A stretch of 37,418 nt of DNA, from NCBI GenBank assembly GCA_026982475.1, contig JALSHB010000220.1, positions 1-37,418 on the forward strand. The letters are read 5' to 3'. Below, in pieces: positions 2,020 through 37,418 of this stretch. A program made the translations under genes and the position numbers. The stretch comes from Chromatiales bacterium. GTDB taxonomy: Bacteria; Pseudomonadota; Gammaproteobacteria; SZUA-152. How positions within the stretch are numbered: position 1 is the first letter of the stretch; every line of letters begins with the position of its first letter. A model generated the notes under the pieces. It saw nothing but the letters and a program-made list of their open reading frames with translations. It had not been told where the DNA came from and did not search any database.

Positions 2020-2430
2020 TCAGTCGCCGTCACGCCGCCCCATGCGCTTGTCCCAGGTCTTGAAGCGCCGACGGCAGTATTTCAGCAGGGCCTCGTAGCC
2101 ATCGAAGTAGAGTTCGAAGCCGTCCTCGGCGGGGGCGTCGTATTCGCAGTAGTCGTTGCTGTGCTCGCGGCACACCGTGGGCCGGGTTGCGTAGATGCCG
2201 CAGCGGCCGTCGGCCTGAAGGTGCAGGCAGGGCGCCTCCACCAGCAGGTACCAGCCGTCGTCGTCCTTGTAGATGCGCACGTCGCGGTGCGAGATCTGCC
2301 ACAGCAGGTGGTCGAAGTCGTGCATGCTGCGCGGCGTTTCCAGTTGTTCGGTGAAGTAGGTGCAGCATTTTGCGCCCTTGCAGAAGCTGCATTTGTTCTC
2401 GGCGGTGATGGTGATTTTCTTTCGGGGCAT
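2020..2430 (-). CDS. YkgJ-family cysteine cluster protein
   Basis: A 136-residue cytosolic protein of the YkgJ/CxxCxxCC family, a probable zinc or iron-sulfur binder of unknown function. An N-terminal cluster 'CSFCKGAKCC' (residues 14-23) is followed by single cysteines in 'APCLHL', 'GRCGIY', 'TVCREH' and 'DYCEY', the usual family pattern. The frame extends upstream to 2547, but I place the start at ATG 2428-2430 (MPRKK), because the upstream 39 residues look unlike the family and run into the promoter region of the divergent operon. The biochemical role is unknown. Confidence 0.8.
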   Translation of the reverse strand: MPRKKITITAENKCSFCKGAKCCTYFTEQLETPRSMHDFDHLLWQISHRDVRIYKDDDGWYLLVEAPCLHLQADGRCGIYATRPTVCREHSNDYCEYDAPAEDGFELYFDGYEALLKYCRRRFKTWDKRMGRRDGD

Positions 2431-2504
2431 GGCATTCTGGACGGGACGGTTGAAAGCCCCGAATCTTAGCAGTTTTGCGCCCACAGGCGACGGCCCGGGC
2501 CGTG

Positions 2505-2523
2505 GCGGGGTATAATTCCCCGC
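2505..2523 (+). promoter_or_regulatory. Perfect -10 box inside a palindrome, promoter of the fmdB-DUF502-aspS operon
   Basis: TATAAT at 2511-2516 matches the sigma-70 -10 consensus and sits in the 158-bp divergent gap. It lies between GCGGGG and CCCCGC, so the -10 hexamer is the loop of a 6-bp GC inverted repeat. No convincing -35 box is seen 16-18 bp upstream. The expected transcript would have a leader of about 65 nt before the ATG at 2589. Confidence 0.55.
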
Positions 2524-2588
2524 TTGATTTTTTTGTCTTGATCCCAATCTTTGGCAGTCGGGATTTACTGCTTATAGAGGATGTAGCA

Positions 2589-2867
2589 ATGCCGATTTAC
2601 GAATACGCCTGCAAGGCCTGCGGCCATCACCACGAGGCGCTGCAGAAGATGAGTGACGACGCCCTCACCGAATGCCCCGCGTGCGGCAAGCCCGAGCTGG
2701 AAAAGCTGATCTCCGCGGCCGGCTTCCGCCTCAAGGGCAGCGGCTGGTACGAGACCGATTTCAAGGGCGGCGGCAAGAAGGGCGCCGAGAAGGGTGGCGC
2801 CGCCGACAGCGCGCCGAAAAAGGCCGCCGCGGGCGGTTGCGGTTCCGGCGGCTGTGGCTGCCACTGA
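2589..2867 (+). CDS. FmdB-family zinc-ribbon protein
   Basis: A 92-residue putative regulatory protein of the FmdB/CxxC_CxxC_SSSS family. It starts MPIYEYACKACGH, with the paired cysteines of a zinc ribbon at 'CKAC' and 'CPAC' (about residues 8-11 and 35-38), then the conserved 'GFRLKGSGWYETDF'. The C-terminus is a low-complexity Lys/Gly/Ala tail ending in a cysteine-glycine cluster, 'GGCGSGGCGCH', which may add metal binding. AGAGG at 2576-2580 is well placed for ATG 2589, so I trim the longer open frame. It is the first gene of the set that leads to aspS, an arrangement common in gammaproteobacteria. Its function is not established. Confidence 0.85.
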   Translation: MPIYEYACKACGHHHEALQKMSDDALTECPACGKPELEKLISAAGFRLKGSGWYETDFKGGGKKGAEKGGAADSAPKKAAAGGCGSGGCGCH

Positions 2868-2904
2868 TGTGCGGCGCTGAGCCCCGCCCCGCGCGGCGCA
2901 TCGC

Positions 2905-3558
2905 ATGAAGCGCTATCTCATCGCCGGCCTGCTGGTGTGGGTGCCGCTGGGGGTGACCGTGATGGTCATCAAGCTGCTGGTGGGCATGATGGACCGCAGC
3001 CTGCTGCTGCTGCCCGAGCCCTACCGCCCGGACAACCTGCTGGGCTTTCACGTCCCCGGCCTCGGCGTGGTGCTGACCACCATCATCGTGCTGGTCACGG
3101 GCATGGTGGTGGCCAACCTGTTCGGCCGCAAGCTGGTCAAGCTGTGGGAGACACTGCTGGCGCAGATCCCGCTGGTGCGCACCATCTACACCGGCGTCAA
3201 GCAGATCCTGGAGACGGTGTTCGCCTCCGGCGACCAGAGCTTCCGCAAGGTGCTGCTGGTGGAGTACCCGCGCAAGGGCCTGTGGACCCTGGCCTTCCAG
3301 TCCAGCACCGCGGTCGGCGAGGCGCAGGTCAAGACCGGGCGGGAAGTGGTCAACGTGTTCATCCCCACCACCCCCAACCCCACCTCGGGCTTTTTCATCA
3401 TGGTGCCCAGCGACGACGTCATCGAGCTGGACATGAGTGTGGACGATGGCCTGAAGATGATCATTTCCGCCGGCGTGGTGGTGCCGGAATGGTCGCCGGA
3501 CACCTTGCCGGATGGCGGCAAGCCGGGCACCAGAAACGATGCGGAAAGCGCCGCCTGA
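2905..3558 (+). CDS. DUF502-family membrane protein
   Basis: A 217-residue protein with two N-terminal hydrophobic segments: '[20 protein letters not shown]' at about residues 3-22 and a second at about 50-75. A soluble domain follows with the family motif '[13 protein letters not shown]' near residues 87-99 and '[14 protein letters not shown]' near 150-163. This matches the DUF502 inner-membrane family of unknown function. The gene starts 37 bp after fmdB and ends 61 bp before aspS, so the three are probably co-transcribed. No strong Shine-Dalgarno sequence precedes the ATG. The acidic/serine C-terminal tail is not conserved in the family. Confidence 0.85.
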
Positions 3559-8632: not shown

Positions 8633-9313
8633 GTGCACGTCATGGGTGTGGTGAACTGTCCCGAATCGGTTATTCTCATCCACGGCCTGTGGCTGACGGG
8701 GCTGGAGATGTCCCTGCTGCGCCGGCGTCTGCGCCGCTGCGGCTTCAATCCGGTGCAGTTCACCTGGCCCACCGTGCGCTGCAGCCTGGCCGACAACGCC
8801 AGGCGCCTGCAGCGTTTCGTCGGCCGGCTCGATGCCGATGTCGTCCACTTCGTCGCCCACAGCCTGGGCGGTCTGCTGCTGCGGCAGTTCTTTCACGATT
8901 TTCCCGACCAGCGCCCGGGGCGCGTGGTGACCCTGGGCACGCCGCATGCGGGCAGCGCGGCCGCCCTGCGCCTGGCGCAGCAGCGCATTGGCCGGCTGTT
9001 GCTGGGCAAGAGCCTCGACCACGGCCTGCGCGGCGATGTGCCAGCGTGGACGGGGGAGCGGGAGATCGGCGTGATCGCCGGCGATCTGGGGCTGGGTCTG
9101 GGGCGGCTGCTGGGCCTCTCGGGACCCAACGATGGCGCGGTGCTGCTCAGCGAGACGCGCCTGCCGGGGATGACGGATTACCGGGTGTTTCACACCAGCC
9201 ATACCGGCCTGCTGTTTTCCGCCGAGGTGGCGCAGGCCTCATGCGCCTTCCTGCGTGAGGGCCGTTTCCCGCCCCAGGGACGCTTTCGGCCGCGCACGCG
9301 GCAGCGGATCTAA
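8633..9313 (+). CDS. Alpha/beta hydrolase (esterase/lipase-like)
   Basis: A 226-residue alpha/beta-hydrolase. It shows the oxyanion motif 'ILIHGLW' near residues 15-21, the nucleophile elbow 'AHSLGG' near residues 75-80, 'VVTLGTPHAGSAAA' as in PGAP1/triacylglycerol-lipase-like proteins, a likely catalytic Asp in 'GPNDGAV' (about 165) and a His in 'HTSHTGLLFS' (about 185-194). No signal peptide is evident. I start at GTG 8633 because GGGGGC at 8617-8622 is about 10 bp upstream; ATG 8642 is the alternative. The last 75 bases overlap the convergent acyltransferase gene, so the two 3' ends are mutually antisense. The substrate is unknown. Confidence 0.8.
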   Translation: MHVMGVVNCPESVILIHGLWLTGLEMSLLRRRLRRCGFNPVQFTWPTVRCSLADNARRLQRFVGRLDADVVHFVAHSLGGLLLRQFFHDFPDQRPGRVVTLGTPHAGSAAALRLAQQRIGRLLLGKSLDHGLRGDVPAWTGEREIGVIAGDLGLGLGRLLGLSGPNDGAVLLSETRLPGMTDYRVFHTSHTGLLFSAEVAQASCAFLREGRFPPQGRFRPRTRQRI

Positions 9314-10069
9314 TACCGGCATTGCCTTCCTGTCCAGTTCCGTGACGATCAGCGCGCGGCATTCCGCAGCCAGTTCGCGGCGATGGGCGCGGCTGGAGAG
9401 GGGCGGCAGGAAGCGCAGCTCCACGTGGGTCTCGGGCCGGGCGAGGATGCGCCACAGGTGGGTGATGAACAGGTCGTCGCCGGTGTAGGGGGCGATGTCG
9501 TCGTGTGCGCCATCCCGGCGGTAGCGGATGGCCAGCGGCTGGATCGGGCAATAGGCCCGGCGCGCGGCCTCGAACAGGGCCGGGTGAAAGGCGTCCACGC
9601 GGCGGCCATCGCTGGTGGTGCCTTCGGGGAAGATGACCACGTGCTGGCGCAGACGCAGGGCGTGGCACAGGTGCTGATTGCTTTCGAACAGGGCGCTGGC
9701 GCGGTTGCGCTGAATGAAGCGGGTGCCGCTGCGCGCCGCCAGGGGGCCGATCAGCGGCCAGCGTCGCACCTCCTCCTTGGCCAGAAACTGCGCCGGGCGC
9801 ACGCTGGCGATGGCGATCACGTCCAGCCACGAGATGTGATTGGCGGCGATCATCGCCGGCACCGGCAACGCCTCCAGCGGTACCTCGACGCGCAGGGCGA
9901 GGATGCGCGTGAGCCCTTGCATCCACTGCTGGATGGTGGCCTGCCCCTCGGGGCTTTGGTGCCAGTGTTCACCGTGCCGCCGGCGCAGTCGGGCGCTCTT
10001 CAGCAGGCCCCGGCCGAGGTGGCCGGCGAGGCGGATCAGCCGCAGGCTGGCGCGTAGTAGATTCAGCAT
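9239..10069 (-). CDS. 1-acyl-glycerol-3-phosphate acyltransferase family protein (PlsC/OlsA-like)
   Basis: A 276-residue lysophospholipid acyltransferase. The catalytic motif is 'NHISWLD' (HX4D, about residues 77-83), the second motif is 'TRFIQRNRAS' (about 116) and the third is 'FPEGTTSDG' (about 146-154). The N-terminus is basic with a short hydrophobic stretch, as expected for membrane attachment. It begins 3 bp after the stop of an OlsB-like gene on the same strand, the classic olsB-olsA pairing for ornithine lipids, where OlsA O-acylates lyso-ornithine lipid. A general PlsC role is the alternative. The 3' end overlaps the convergent hydrolase gene by 75 bp. Confidence 0.85.
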   Translation of the reverse strand: MLNLLRASLRLIRLAGHLGRGLLKSARLRRRHGEHWHQSPEGQATIQQWMQGLTRILALRVEVPLEALPVPAMIAANHISWLDVIAIASVRPAQFLAKEEVRRWPLIGPLAARSGTRFIQRNRASALFESNQHLCHALRLRQHVVIFPEGTTSDGRRVDAFHPALFEAARRAYCPIQPLAIRYRRDGAHDDIAPYTGDDLFITHLWRILARPETHVELRFLPPLSSRAHRRELAAECRALIVTELDRKAMPVLDPLPRARPKASLGRETALTQEGA

Positions 10070-10072
10070 GGC

Positions 10073-10867
10073 TCAGTCCTGTTTCTGCACGAAGTGGCGG
10101 GCGTAGCGGCGGTCGATGCGGTCGCGGTCCATGAGCACGAACACGTCGGCGACGTTGAACTGGGCGTCCCAGTACGGTTCGCCGCAGATCACCGCGCCGA
10201 GGCGCAGGTAGGCCTTCAGCAGGCTGGGGATGCGCGCCGGGCCGACGGCATCGGTAACCGGCGCGGGGGGCTCGCGCTGCGGATACACGCGCAGGTGCGG
10301 GGCGGCGTAATACCTCTCGCGCAGGCGCTCCATGACCGCGGCGGCATTGGCGCCGCCATCGTCCAGCGGGATGCTGGCGCAGCCGATCAGGTAGTCCACG
10401 TCGTGCAGCACCATCATGCGGGCGATGCCCTGCCAGAGCACGGCGATGGTGCTCCCGGTGCGGTAGTCGGGGTGGATGCAGGTGCGTCCCACCTCCATCA
10501 GGCGGCCCGGCAGATCCAGGATGTTTTGCAGGTCGAACTCGGTTTCCGAGTAATAGCGGGCGCCGTAGTCCGGATTGCTGTCGATGAGCAGGCGTGTGGT
10601 GCCGACGATCTCGCCGCTGCGGCCATCGCGCACCAGCAGGTGCCGGCTGAGGGGGTCGAAGTCGTCCTGGTCGACGCCGGGGATGGGGGTGTCGAGGGTG
10701 GCGCCCATTTCATCGGCGAAGATGCGGTAGCGCAGGCGCTGGCACTGGCGCACCTCCGCCTGGGTGCCGGCCAGGGCCACGCTGAGCGCCGGGGCTGCGC
10801 CGGCGGGCGGGGCGGGGGTGGCGGGTTTTTCGGGTGGGAACTGCAGTGCTTCGCACGGGGTAGCCAT
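10073..10867 (-). CDS. OlsB-like GNAT acyltransferase (ornithine N-acyltransferase family)
   Basis: A 264-residue protein of the hemolysin-like/OlsB acyltransferase family, which transfers an acyl chain from acyl-ACP to the amino group of ornithine. Landmarks are 'CQRLRYRIFADEMGA' (about residue 45-59), 'DFDPLSRHLLVRD' (about 70), 'EVGRTCIHPDYR' (about 128-139), 'LWQGIARMM' and 'LIGCASIPLDD' (about 165). Two ATGs are close together. I chose 10865-10867 because AGGAG on this strand ends 7 nt before it, whereas ATG 10871-10873 is too close to that box. It is followed at once by a PlsC/OlsA-like gene. PEP-CTERM-associated acyltransferases are a related alternative. Confidence 0.75.
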   Translation of the reverse strand: MATPCEALQFPPEKPATPAPPAGAAPALSVALAGTQAEVRQCQRLRYRIFADEMGATLDTPIPGVDQDDFDPLSRHLLVRDGRSGEIVGTTRLLIDSNPDYGARYYSETEFDLQNILDLPGRLMEVGRTCIHPDYRTGSTIAVLWQGIARMMVLHDVDYLIGCASIPLDDGGANAAAVMERLRERYYAAPHLRVYPQREPPAPVTDAVGPARIPSLLKAYLRLGAVICGEPYWDAQFNVADVFVLMDRDRIDRRYARHFVQKQD

Positions 10868-35260: not shown

Positions 35261-36238
35261 TCAGCATCCGGCCACATCGAGCGGGCTGCGCACGGCATGC
35301 CCGCCGCGATTCAACACATGGGTGTAGATCTGCGTGGTGCGCACATCCTGGTGCCCGAGCAGCTCCTGCACCGTGCGGATGTCATAGCCATTTTCCAGCA
35401 GATGCGTGGCAAAGGAATGACGCAGGGTATGGCTGGAGGCAGGCTTGCTCAGCCCCGCCGCGCGAACGGCCTGCTTGATCGCCCGCTGAAAGGACTTCTC
35501 GTTCAGGTGATGGCGCCTCACGACTCCGCTGCGTGGGTCCCGGGAAAGCCTGCGCGCCGGAAATAGATACTGCCAGCCCAACTCACGCCCCGCATTGGGA
35601 TACTTGCGCGCCAGTGCATAGGGCAGATAGACTGGCGCTATTTCATCGCGGCGGTCCTGCTCATGGAGGATGCGAACCTTATCCCGTTGTCGCTCCAGCG
35701 GCTCCACCAGCGAGCCCGGCAGCATCGTACGCCTGTCCTTCCCGCCCTTGCCATCGCGCACCGTGACCTCCAGCCGCGCAAAATCCACATCCTTCACCCG
35801 CAGCCGTATCGCCTCCATCAGCCGCAGTCCGGAACCGTAGAGCAACGACGCCACCAAGTGGTGGACCCCATCCAGCTGCACCAGCACCCCGCGCACCTCC
35901 GCCGGGGTCAGCACCACCGGCAGCCGCGGCGGCTTCTTCGCCCGCGTTACGCCGTCGAGCCAGGGGAACTCGATTTCCAGAACCTCCTTGTAGAGAAAAA
36001 GAATCGCCGCCAGCGCCTGATTCTGCGTCGATGGCGCCACATTTCGATTCACCGCCAGATGCGTCAGAAACGCCTCCACCTCCCGCGCCCCCATGCGGGC
36101 AGGGTGGCGCTTGTCGTGAAAGAGAATAAACCGACGGATCCAGTCAACATAACGCTTCTCCGTGCGGATGCTGTAATGCTTCACCCGGCAACGCTCACGC
36201 ACCTGGTCAAGCAGACGGGGTTTGGTGGTCTGATCCAT
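35261..36238 (-). CDS. intI: Integron integrase (IntI-type tyrosine recombinase)
   Basis: A 325-residue tyrosine recombinase that inserts and excises gene cassettes at attI/attC. Catalytic residues are visible: Arg139 in '[16 protein letters not shown]', His270 and Arg273 in '[13 protein letters not shown]', His296 in '[16 protein letters not shown]' and Tyr305. The IntI-specific extra segment is present at about residues 210-246 ('[16 protein letters not shown]', then '[14 protein letters not shown]'), which separates it from XerC/D. It reads away from the cassettes, as in most integrons. I use ATG 36238, with GGAGG upstream, not the longer frame. It ends 15 bp from the acnB stop. It appears intact and is GC-rich like the chromosome. 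Confidence 0.96.
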
Positions 36239-36375
36239 AGACCCGTTTCCTCCATGAAATACCGACCCGTAACCACAGGCCGGCAGATTGAAAATCAACG
36301 AGTTAAAGTCGCAGGAGGATTTTATCGGACAAAAATGAGCTGTTGCAACAACCCACTTTTTAAACAGAATTATAG
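36239..36375. other. attI region of the integron
   Basis: The 137 bp between the integrase start and the first cassette boundary is where attI must lie. The boundary heptamer is GTTAGCG (36375-36381), with the expected cut between G36375 and T36376. A perfect palindrome TGTTGCAACA (36341-36350) and an AT-rich stretch lie just upstream. No LexA box and no convincing cassette promoter could be recognised by eye, though TTGAAA at 36288-36293 is a possible -35. Confidence 0.75.
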
Positions 36376-37307
36376 TTAGCGGTTTGAAGGCGGCAAGGTG
36401 GAGTATGGATATAGATAAAGGAAAGCTTCAATTATGGCTCCACGAAGAATTTTTAAAGACTAAAGGATATGAAGTATCAAATCGGCTTGACTGGTTGGAT
36501 TACTGCCTATTCATTTTTGAAGAAAATTATAAAGTTCTAGATGAATATTCCAATTCAACACAAGGCGTAGATGTTGCGTTTGAAATGTTTAAAGACCATG
36601 ATTATTCGTCCTCGATTCACGGGCATTTTGTAAGGCATCTTCATAATTATTTGGTTTCATCAAAATCACTTGTTGAACATACCAGAATTAGTATGCGCTC
36701 TTGGTATAAGGGCACATCTTTACTAAAGGTATATGAGGACGAGGTTAAACGAATATTTTTAGATGATCCACTCACCTCTTTTATTGAAGCTCTTAGAAAT
36801 TATTGTGTACACAAGAGTCCAATAGGCGTCATAACTCAGCATGATCTCACGGGAAGTGGGCCTTATAACTCAACTTTTATCCATAAAGAGTCATTACTTG
36901 ATTGGGGGCGTCTTCCCAATCAAGCAAAGAAGTATTTGGAGGGCTTCGATAAAGATATCCCAATTATTGCTCCTGTCTCAGAATATACAGATAAAGTTGT
37001 GAGCTTCAGGAAGTGGCTCAGGAAAGAGTTTGAAAAATATCACGCACAAGAAATATACGAAGCTAAGTGGTATATTCAAGCGTTGCGGCTGGCTGAAGAA
37101 GAGAACTATGATCTTTTATTTCGCACTTGCGGGTTGAACATTCCTAGATTAAAGAACAAGAAATGAAGTCTCGGTATTTAGATAGTCAATTGGTAGATTC
37201 ACCGCTAACAAGGCCCATCAACTCGGACATTTTACCGCGTGGTTTGCTTGTGCTAAAAAAGCCTAGCACAAGCAAACCACGCGGTAAAATTCCGGTTATG
37301 GGCGACG
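36376..37307 (+). mobile_element. Integron gene cassette 1 (932 bp)
   Basis: The unit starts at TTAGCG, the part of the R' box that belongs to this cassette, and ends at the G of the attC R' box (37307). It holds a single gene and its attC, with little else, the standard cassette layout. The base composition is much more AT-rich than the chromosome to the left. The 5' box GTTAGCG is the exact reverse complement of the R'' box CGCTAAC at 37203-37209, as expected for a unit that once was a circle with one complete attC. Confidence 0.88.
36405..37166 (+). CDS. Cassette-encoded protein of unknown function with a HEPN-like R-x4-H motif
   Basis: A 253-residue, largely helical, AT-rich gene inside integron cassette 1. 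I do not recognise the family. The segment '[17 protein letters not shown]' at residues 125-141 contains Arg131-Asn-x3-His136, the form of the RNase motif (R-x4-6-H, often RN...H) of HEPN-domain toxins and abortive-infection proteins. It is preceded by helices with '[20 protein letters not shown]'. No signal peptide or membrane helix is seen. ATG 36405 has AAGG 6 bp upstream; the longer frame begins at TTG 36384. There is no antitoxin-like gene in the same cassette. A HEPN role is inference from one motif. Confidence 0.7.
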
Positions 37308-37313
37308 TTATGT
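37203..37313 (+). other. attC recombination site of cassette 1
   Basis: Simple-site boxes lie at both ends: R'' CGCTAAC (37203-37209) and R' GTTATGT (37307-37313). An inner stem GCCCAT (37213-37218) pairs with ATGGGC (37298-37303). The centre is a perfect 27-bp stem (37229-37255 with 37264-37290) and an 8-nt loop AAAAAGCC. The single-stranded fold is the substrate for IntI. The total length of about 111 bp is within the known attC range. Confidence 0.88.
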
Positions 37314-37319
37314 GAAAAA

Positions 37320-37418
37320 ATGAGTATATTTCTTAAAATTAACAACTTAGCAATGTTTTTAGTACTGCTAATTTCATGTAACGTGAATGGAGCTGAAATG
37401 AAGGGGCTATATTTTAAC
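37320..37418 (+). CDS. Start of a putative lipoprotein in cassette 2 (partial)
   Basis: An ATG lies 12 bp after the cassette 1/2 boundary and the frame stays open for 33 codons to the window end. The N-terminus 'MSIFLKINNLAMFLVLLISC' looks like a lipoprotein signal peptide with lipobox LISC, followed by 'NVNGAEMKGLYFN'. It is AT-rich, like cassette 1. Secreted or membrane products are frequent in chromosomal cassette arrays. Nothing more can be said about its function. Confidence 0.6.
   Translation, partial: MSIFLKINNLAMFLVLLISCNVNGAEMKGLYFN

Follow-up and report, generated by a model that had tools for sequence, protein, structure and literature searches.

Results

Integron setting of the gene

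The window, which is the whole of contig C220 (JALSHB010000220.1) of a Chromatiales bacterium and comprises 37,418 nt, ends within an integron (Table 1). The full-length integrase scored 493 bits against TIGR02249, for which the cut-off is 265. The neighboring cassette starts with GTTAGCGG at 36375, its edges carry a 9-nt repeat (GTTAGCGGT/ACCGCTAAC), and it is closed by an attC site with a perfect 27-nt stem. Together, intI, the integrase-proximal site and the attC site confirm the identity of an integron gene cassette, as the sequence-only reading had claimed. Rfam microRNA matches at 37223-37295 correspond to the attC hairpin and were rejected as RNA genes.

Table 1. Positions in the window of the integron elements, the cassette gene and its key codons.
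Feature	Position	Strand	Basis or detail
intI, encoding the integron integrase; divergently oriented to the cassette	35261..36298	-	TIGR02249, E=3e-148; Phage_integrase and SAM_4 domains
Recombination site GTTAGCGGT next to the integrase, at the left boundary of the first cassette	36375..36383	+	9-nt inverted match with 37201-37209
Shine-Dalgarno-like AAGGTGGAG ahead of ATG 36405	36395..36403	+	Read from sequence
CDS of HEPN-like cassette protein, 253 aa	36405..37166	+	phrog_12680 match, E=1e-7; homologues
N41 codon, near-invariant Asn, first long helix	36525..36527	+	18/19 motif-independent sequences
N81 codon, near-invariant Asn, second long helix, R-x2-H-N context	36645..36647	+	18/19 motif-independent sequences
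E91 codon, mostly acidic position, second long helix	36675..36677	+	D/E in 14/19
Candidate RNase motif R-N-Y-C-V-H, codons 131-136	36795..36812	+	End of AlphaFold2 helix 122-136
attC closing the cassette	37203..37312	+	R'' CGCTAAC; perfect 27-nt stem 37229-37255/37264-37290; R' GTTATG 37307-37312
Start of next cassette	37308..37418	+	Ended by contig end

The HEPN-like gene is the sole gene of the first cassette and adjoins intI. An AAGG Shine-Dalgarno-like stretch (36395-36398, read from the sequence) precedes its ATG at 36405; a longer, TTG-initiated open reading frame from 36384 is less likely. Within an array, expression is usually highest for the first cassette (PMC12409362), and since this gene adjoins the integrase and the array promoter, its expression is expected. 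Integron cassettes are, furthermore, proven reservoirs of defence genes (PMC12409362).

Related integron pieces were observed elsewhere. In the same genome, half an attC site with 83% identity occupies the extreme end of another contig (G000:C156:13661-13695, minus strand) and is possibly the far side of the broken cassette array. Additionally, a genome of the same taxonomic family carries a locus (L049, G011:C95:32473-35107) with an ApeA-type HEPN gene at 316-1806 (PF18739, E=2e-11). Directly ahead of that gene is an attC-like element (317-447) whose halves are ~81-82% identical to the attC site of the window, and a further attC-like piece is found at 2420-2486. The ApeA-type gene seems to be an integron cassette as well.

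A rare but widespread family

The candidate motif, R131-N-Y-C-V-H136, is the sole R-x4-H in the 253-residue translation of 36405-37166. Among shuffles with the protein's own composition, 1.9% contained RN-x3-H and 42% contained R-x4-H. At these frequencies the motif in a single sequence is weak evidence, and the real evidence for a putative RNxxxH motif is its conservation in distant homologues. Homologues were drawn from tblastn on plasmids, a profile search of whole genomes, genome_contigs and viral contigs; when the query and two relatives were compared with annotated phages by tblastn, no match was obtained.

The family has no match above cut-off in Pfam, NCBIfam or PADLOC. In PADLOC the query gave no match, and the 19 family members gave one, at E=0.01 only. 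An LpxH-like match in NCBIfam (E=0.004) and a DUF4034 match in Pfam (E=0.14) were far under the cut-off and were rejected. The query does match phrog_12680, whose function is unknown; further members have matches to phrog_30874 and 23007 as well, and the PHROG profile match is significant across the family. PHROG 12680, together with 30874 and 23007, is the same family in phage genomes, although these profiles give no mechanism. The family, which had been proposed as undescribed, is thus unnamed and without a described Pfam, NCBIfam or PADLOC family, yet it had already been seen as phrog_12680.

Members occur in only 5 of 369 genomes of the class and 6 of 398 of the phylum, with the query genome counted in both. 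Their range nonetheless spans Proteobacteria (including Zetaproteobacteria), Bacillota, Actinomycetota, Acidobacteria, Gastranaerophilales and haloarchaea, and this rare but wide occurrence suggests horizontal spread. One branch (L025-L028, L030 and L031; genes at L025:7974-10091, L026:7905-10076 and L027:7977-10082) is fused to ~450 further C-terminal residues, an extension for which no Pfam match was found.

Residue conservation

Conservation was counted over the query and a further 18 homologues collected without use of the motif (19 sequences in total). Matches from genome_contigs were left out of these counts because they had been picked with a pattern containing LRNY. In this set R131 is kept in 17 sequences and H136 in 14, while residue 132 is polar throughout (N in 13, H in 3, and D, S and E in one each). 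N41 and N81 are each retained in 18 of the 19. Position 91 is D/E in 14, with no consistent Ex3[KR], the form that this optional acidic feature typically takes in HEPN domains. Conservation at N41, N81, R131, polar position 132 and H136 is directly supported by the alignment, as are the family itself and the single-gene first cassette of the query by the sequence data.

All three haloarchaeal plasmid members (L005, L045 and L046) read RH(Y/F)xxK, with Lys in place of H136, a consistent alteration at the presumed catalytic positions. Two members from one genus (L019 and L020) have lost both R and H and are still recognisable homologues. The HEPN-like motif predicted from the query alone is therefore conserved in the family, but some true homologues do not have the catalytic His. 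These exceptions, along with a conservation of N41 and N81 that exceeds that of H136, would suit a HEPN-fold or helical RNA-binding protein that does not act as an RNase, such as a sensor or scaffold, in which binding or folding would account for the retention of R131 and the Asn residues. However, every bacterial sequence in the motif-independent set that keeps R also keeps H (14/14), and H136 is placed at a helix end, as a HEPN site would have it; we consider a non-catalytic role unlikely.

Predicted structure

An AlphaFold2 model of the cassette protein, built from 19 sequences (pLDDT 86.3, pTM 0.81), contains helices at 20-51, 67-100, 105-118, 122-136, 188-212 and 214-231 and a hairpin at 141-160. 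The motif forms the C-terminal end of helix 122-136, which stops at H136, so the sequence-only placement of RNYCVH within a predicted helix was correct; the fused homologue L027 has the motif in the same position. Helix 105-118 is inserted between core helices 2 and 3. At the level of prediction, the data directly support a helical bundle in which the motif closes a helix and is followed by a beta-hairpin.

HEPN domains have been described as a four-helix up-down fold with an insertion separating helices 2 and 3 and with Rx4-6H where helix 3 ends, as well as a polar residue (N, D or H) after R and an acidic residue in helix 2 (PMC3710099). The predicted order of elements and the position of the motif fit this description, and the helix order of the model, judged on the order of elements alone, would be compatible with a four-helix up-down bundle of two alpha-hairpins.

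Foldseek against the PDB returned nothing at E<=0.001; its weak matches include the HEPN structures 7ae6 (HepT; TM 0.47 on target) and 3jrt, an integron cassette protein. Pfam gave no HEPN match for the family, hhalign scores against HepT, RiboL-PSP and AbiU2 were not above those of unrelated controls, and a PDB search with the family profile yielded no significant HEPN match, with 3jrt absent at E<=10. A HepT profile alignment that put RN..H in register (P=0.025) was dropped as evidence, since controls score equally well. For the fused ~700-aa homologue, AlphaFold2 confidence was low in the C-terminal part (mean pLDDT 61), and Foldseek of the model found no fold match. Hence the HEPN fold anticipated earlier agrees in helix order and motif position but not in any significant Pfam, profile-profile or Foldseek match.

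The failure of sequence and fold searches to link the family significantly to any HEPN family is what would be expected if the RNxxxH resemblance were convergent and the family were an unrelated helical bundle carried on mobile elements. The strong conservation of N41 in helix 1 and the beta-hairpin after the motif, both non-standard for HEPN, point the same way. Against this, the agreement with the HEPN layout extends over several independent features, namely motif spacing, the polar residue after R, the end of the third core helix, the helix-2/3 insert and the mostly acidic helix-2 position, and Csx1, itself a HEPN protein, also has a beta-hairpin directly after the motif (PMC3710099). We regard convergence as very unlikely.

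Genomic context of homologues

Homologues were found in a Vibrio integron, in prophages and in defence islands, in line with the cassettes and defence islands named beforehand as settings to look for. Neighbors include a type I RM system with an AAA/S8-peptidase pair (L022), HamAB (Hachiman) with an AlbA_2 protein (L028), an RM methylase with an OLD-like ATPase (L033) and AbiE (L044). The Vibrio cassette array (L003) contains putAbiC and HigBA, and the Vibrio homologue, WP_095466730.1, lies beside HigBA. Prophage loci are L011/L026, L014 and L041-L043, of which L043 adjoins a tyrosine integrase; L047 and L048 are B. subtilis phage-plasmid loci, and L004 and L045 are plasmids with integrases. 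About a dozen homologue loci have no recognisable defence neighbor. Taken as a list of loci and not as a statistic, the association of the family with defence genes is suggestive.

At one locus (L008), a relative is flanked by genes at 319-1173 and 2198-3022. One is HEPN_RiboL-PSP-like (E=0.05, under the cut-off) and the other has an FRG domain (E=3.5e-16), so that the locus may represent an uncharacterised cluster of defence genes. At another (L023), PADLOC called 8816-10699 as DpdF (E=9e-252). This protein begins like RecQ and its neighbors resemble glycogen-metabolism genes; the defence context was rejected, and the call is likely a false positive of that library.

No recurring partner gene was found near the focal gene over 16 loci. 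Matches between the neighbors of different loci were limited to a methyltransferase domain in common, to phage genes where the prophages are related, and to a few common domains of housekeeping-type genes. The unit therefore consists of a single gene, and the earlier observation that the cassette has no visible antitoxin is in keeping with this.

This result bears on whether the gene might instead encode a HEPN-like RNase toxin that serves maintenance of the cassette or element, or stress dormancy, and not phage defence, and that is neutralised from outside the gene, be it through low expression, by an RNA or by a cellular factor. HEPN domains of integron cassettes have been proposed as dormancy-inducing RNases (PMC3710099), and the position of the Vibrio homologue beside HigBA would be consistent with such a toxin. 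In contrast, the lack of an antitoxin gene in the cassette and of a recurring partner over the 16 loci argues against it, and the several members beside RM, Hachiman or Abi genes are a better fit to defence. A toxin of this kind is, in our estimation, improbable.

Discussion

Based on these results, we propose that the product of the cassette gene is a HEPN-like endoribonuclease that stands alone, belongs to an undescribed family and, carried as a single-gene defence cassette, acts in abortive phage defence; we put the probability of this reading at about one half. On present evidence the family works like a HEPN RNase while its membership of the superfamily is unproven; we do not file it as a proven HEPN member because the tests for a match by profile and by structure failed.

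The HEPN superfamily (HepT, AbiU2, RiboL-PSP, Csm6/Csx1 and others) has several features in common with the family: an Rx4H motif whose R is followed by a polar residue and which closes the third core helix, the helix-2/3 insert, a mostly acidic position in helix 2, and a mobile and defence context. The family differs in having no significant sequence, profile or Foldseek match, and in its near-invariant Asn residues in helices 1 and 2, its beta-hairpin after the motif and its lack of a consistent Ex3[KR] in helix 2. HepT of the HEPN/MNT toxin-antitoxin HepT-MntA likewise has an Rx4H motif, and 7ae6 is among the weak Foldseek matches, but HepT is ~140 aa and the cassette has no adjacent MNT partner. 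The cassette protein 3jrt (Vpc_cass2), placed in the HEPN superfamily by PMC3710099, shares the integron setting and a weak Foldseek match; it has 166 residues versus 253 and was not retrieved from the PDB with the family profile.

A functional analogy may be Tha, a stand-alone HEPN RNase of Staphylococcus aureus prophages with the motif R265NSIMH270, which is activated by a phage tail protein (PMC11087260). Tha-1 and Tha-2 resemble the cassette gene in being single effector genes on a mobile element with R-N-x3-H, and the proposed logic of a phage-triggered RNase could be the same. This likeness is drawn from the published description, and Tha differs in that it is ~300 aa with a C-terminal HEPN domain (PMC11087260).

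From this evidence we infer that the cassette protein has RNase activity, forms a dimer, responds to a trigger and serves in defence. In the proposed mechanism, two subunits would pair so that their two RNxxxH sites make one metal-independent RNase site. The protein would be silent in uninfected cells and would be switched on by a signal from the phage, for which the beta-hairpin or the C-terminal helices may be the sensor. The active protein would then cut cellular and phage RNA, and this cleavage would stop phage production by abortive infection or dormancy.

More tentatively, and as a proposal that we hold with less confidence than the one for the cassette gene, the family as a whole could be a very broad group of self-controlled, single-gene HEPN-like phage-defence RNases in bacteria and haloarchaea. 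Its active site would be distinct in adding the near-invariant Asn residues of helices 1 and 2, the haloarchaeal members would represent a Lys-for-His variant, and the fused ~700-aa branch would carry an extra regulatory domain. The RHxxxK members allow the HEPN catalytic model to be tested on naturally occurring variants.

For a single gene that needs no antitoxin, silencing and switch-on by phage are directly testable. If the cassette protein is a defence RNase, the family would constitute an uncatalogued single-gene family across bacteria and archaea that current defence finders miss, and it would add another lineage to the case for integrons as stores of anti-phage genes.
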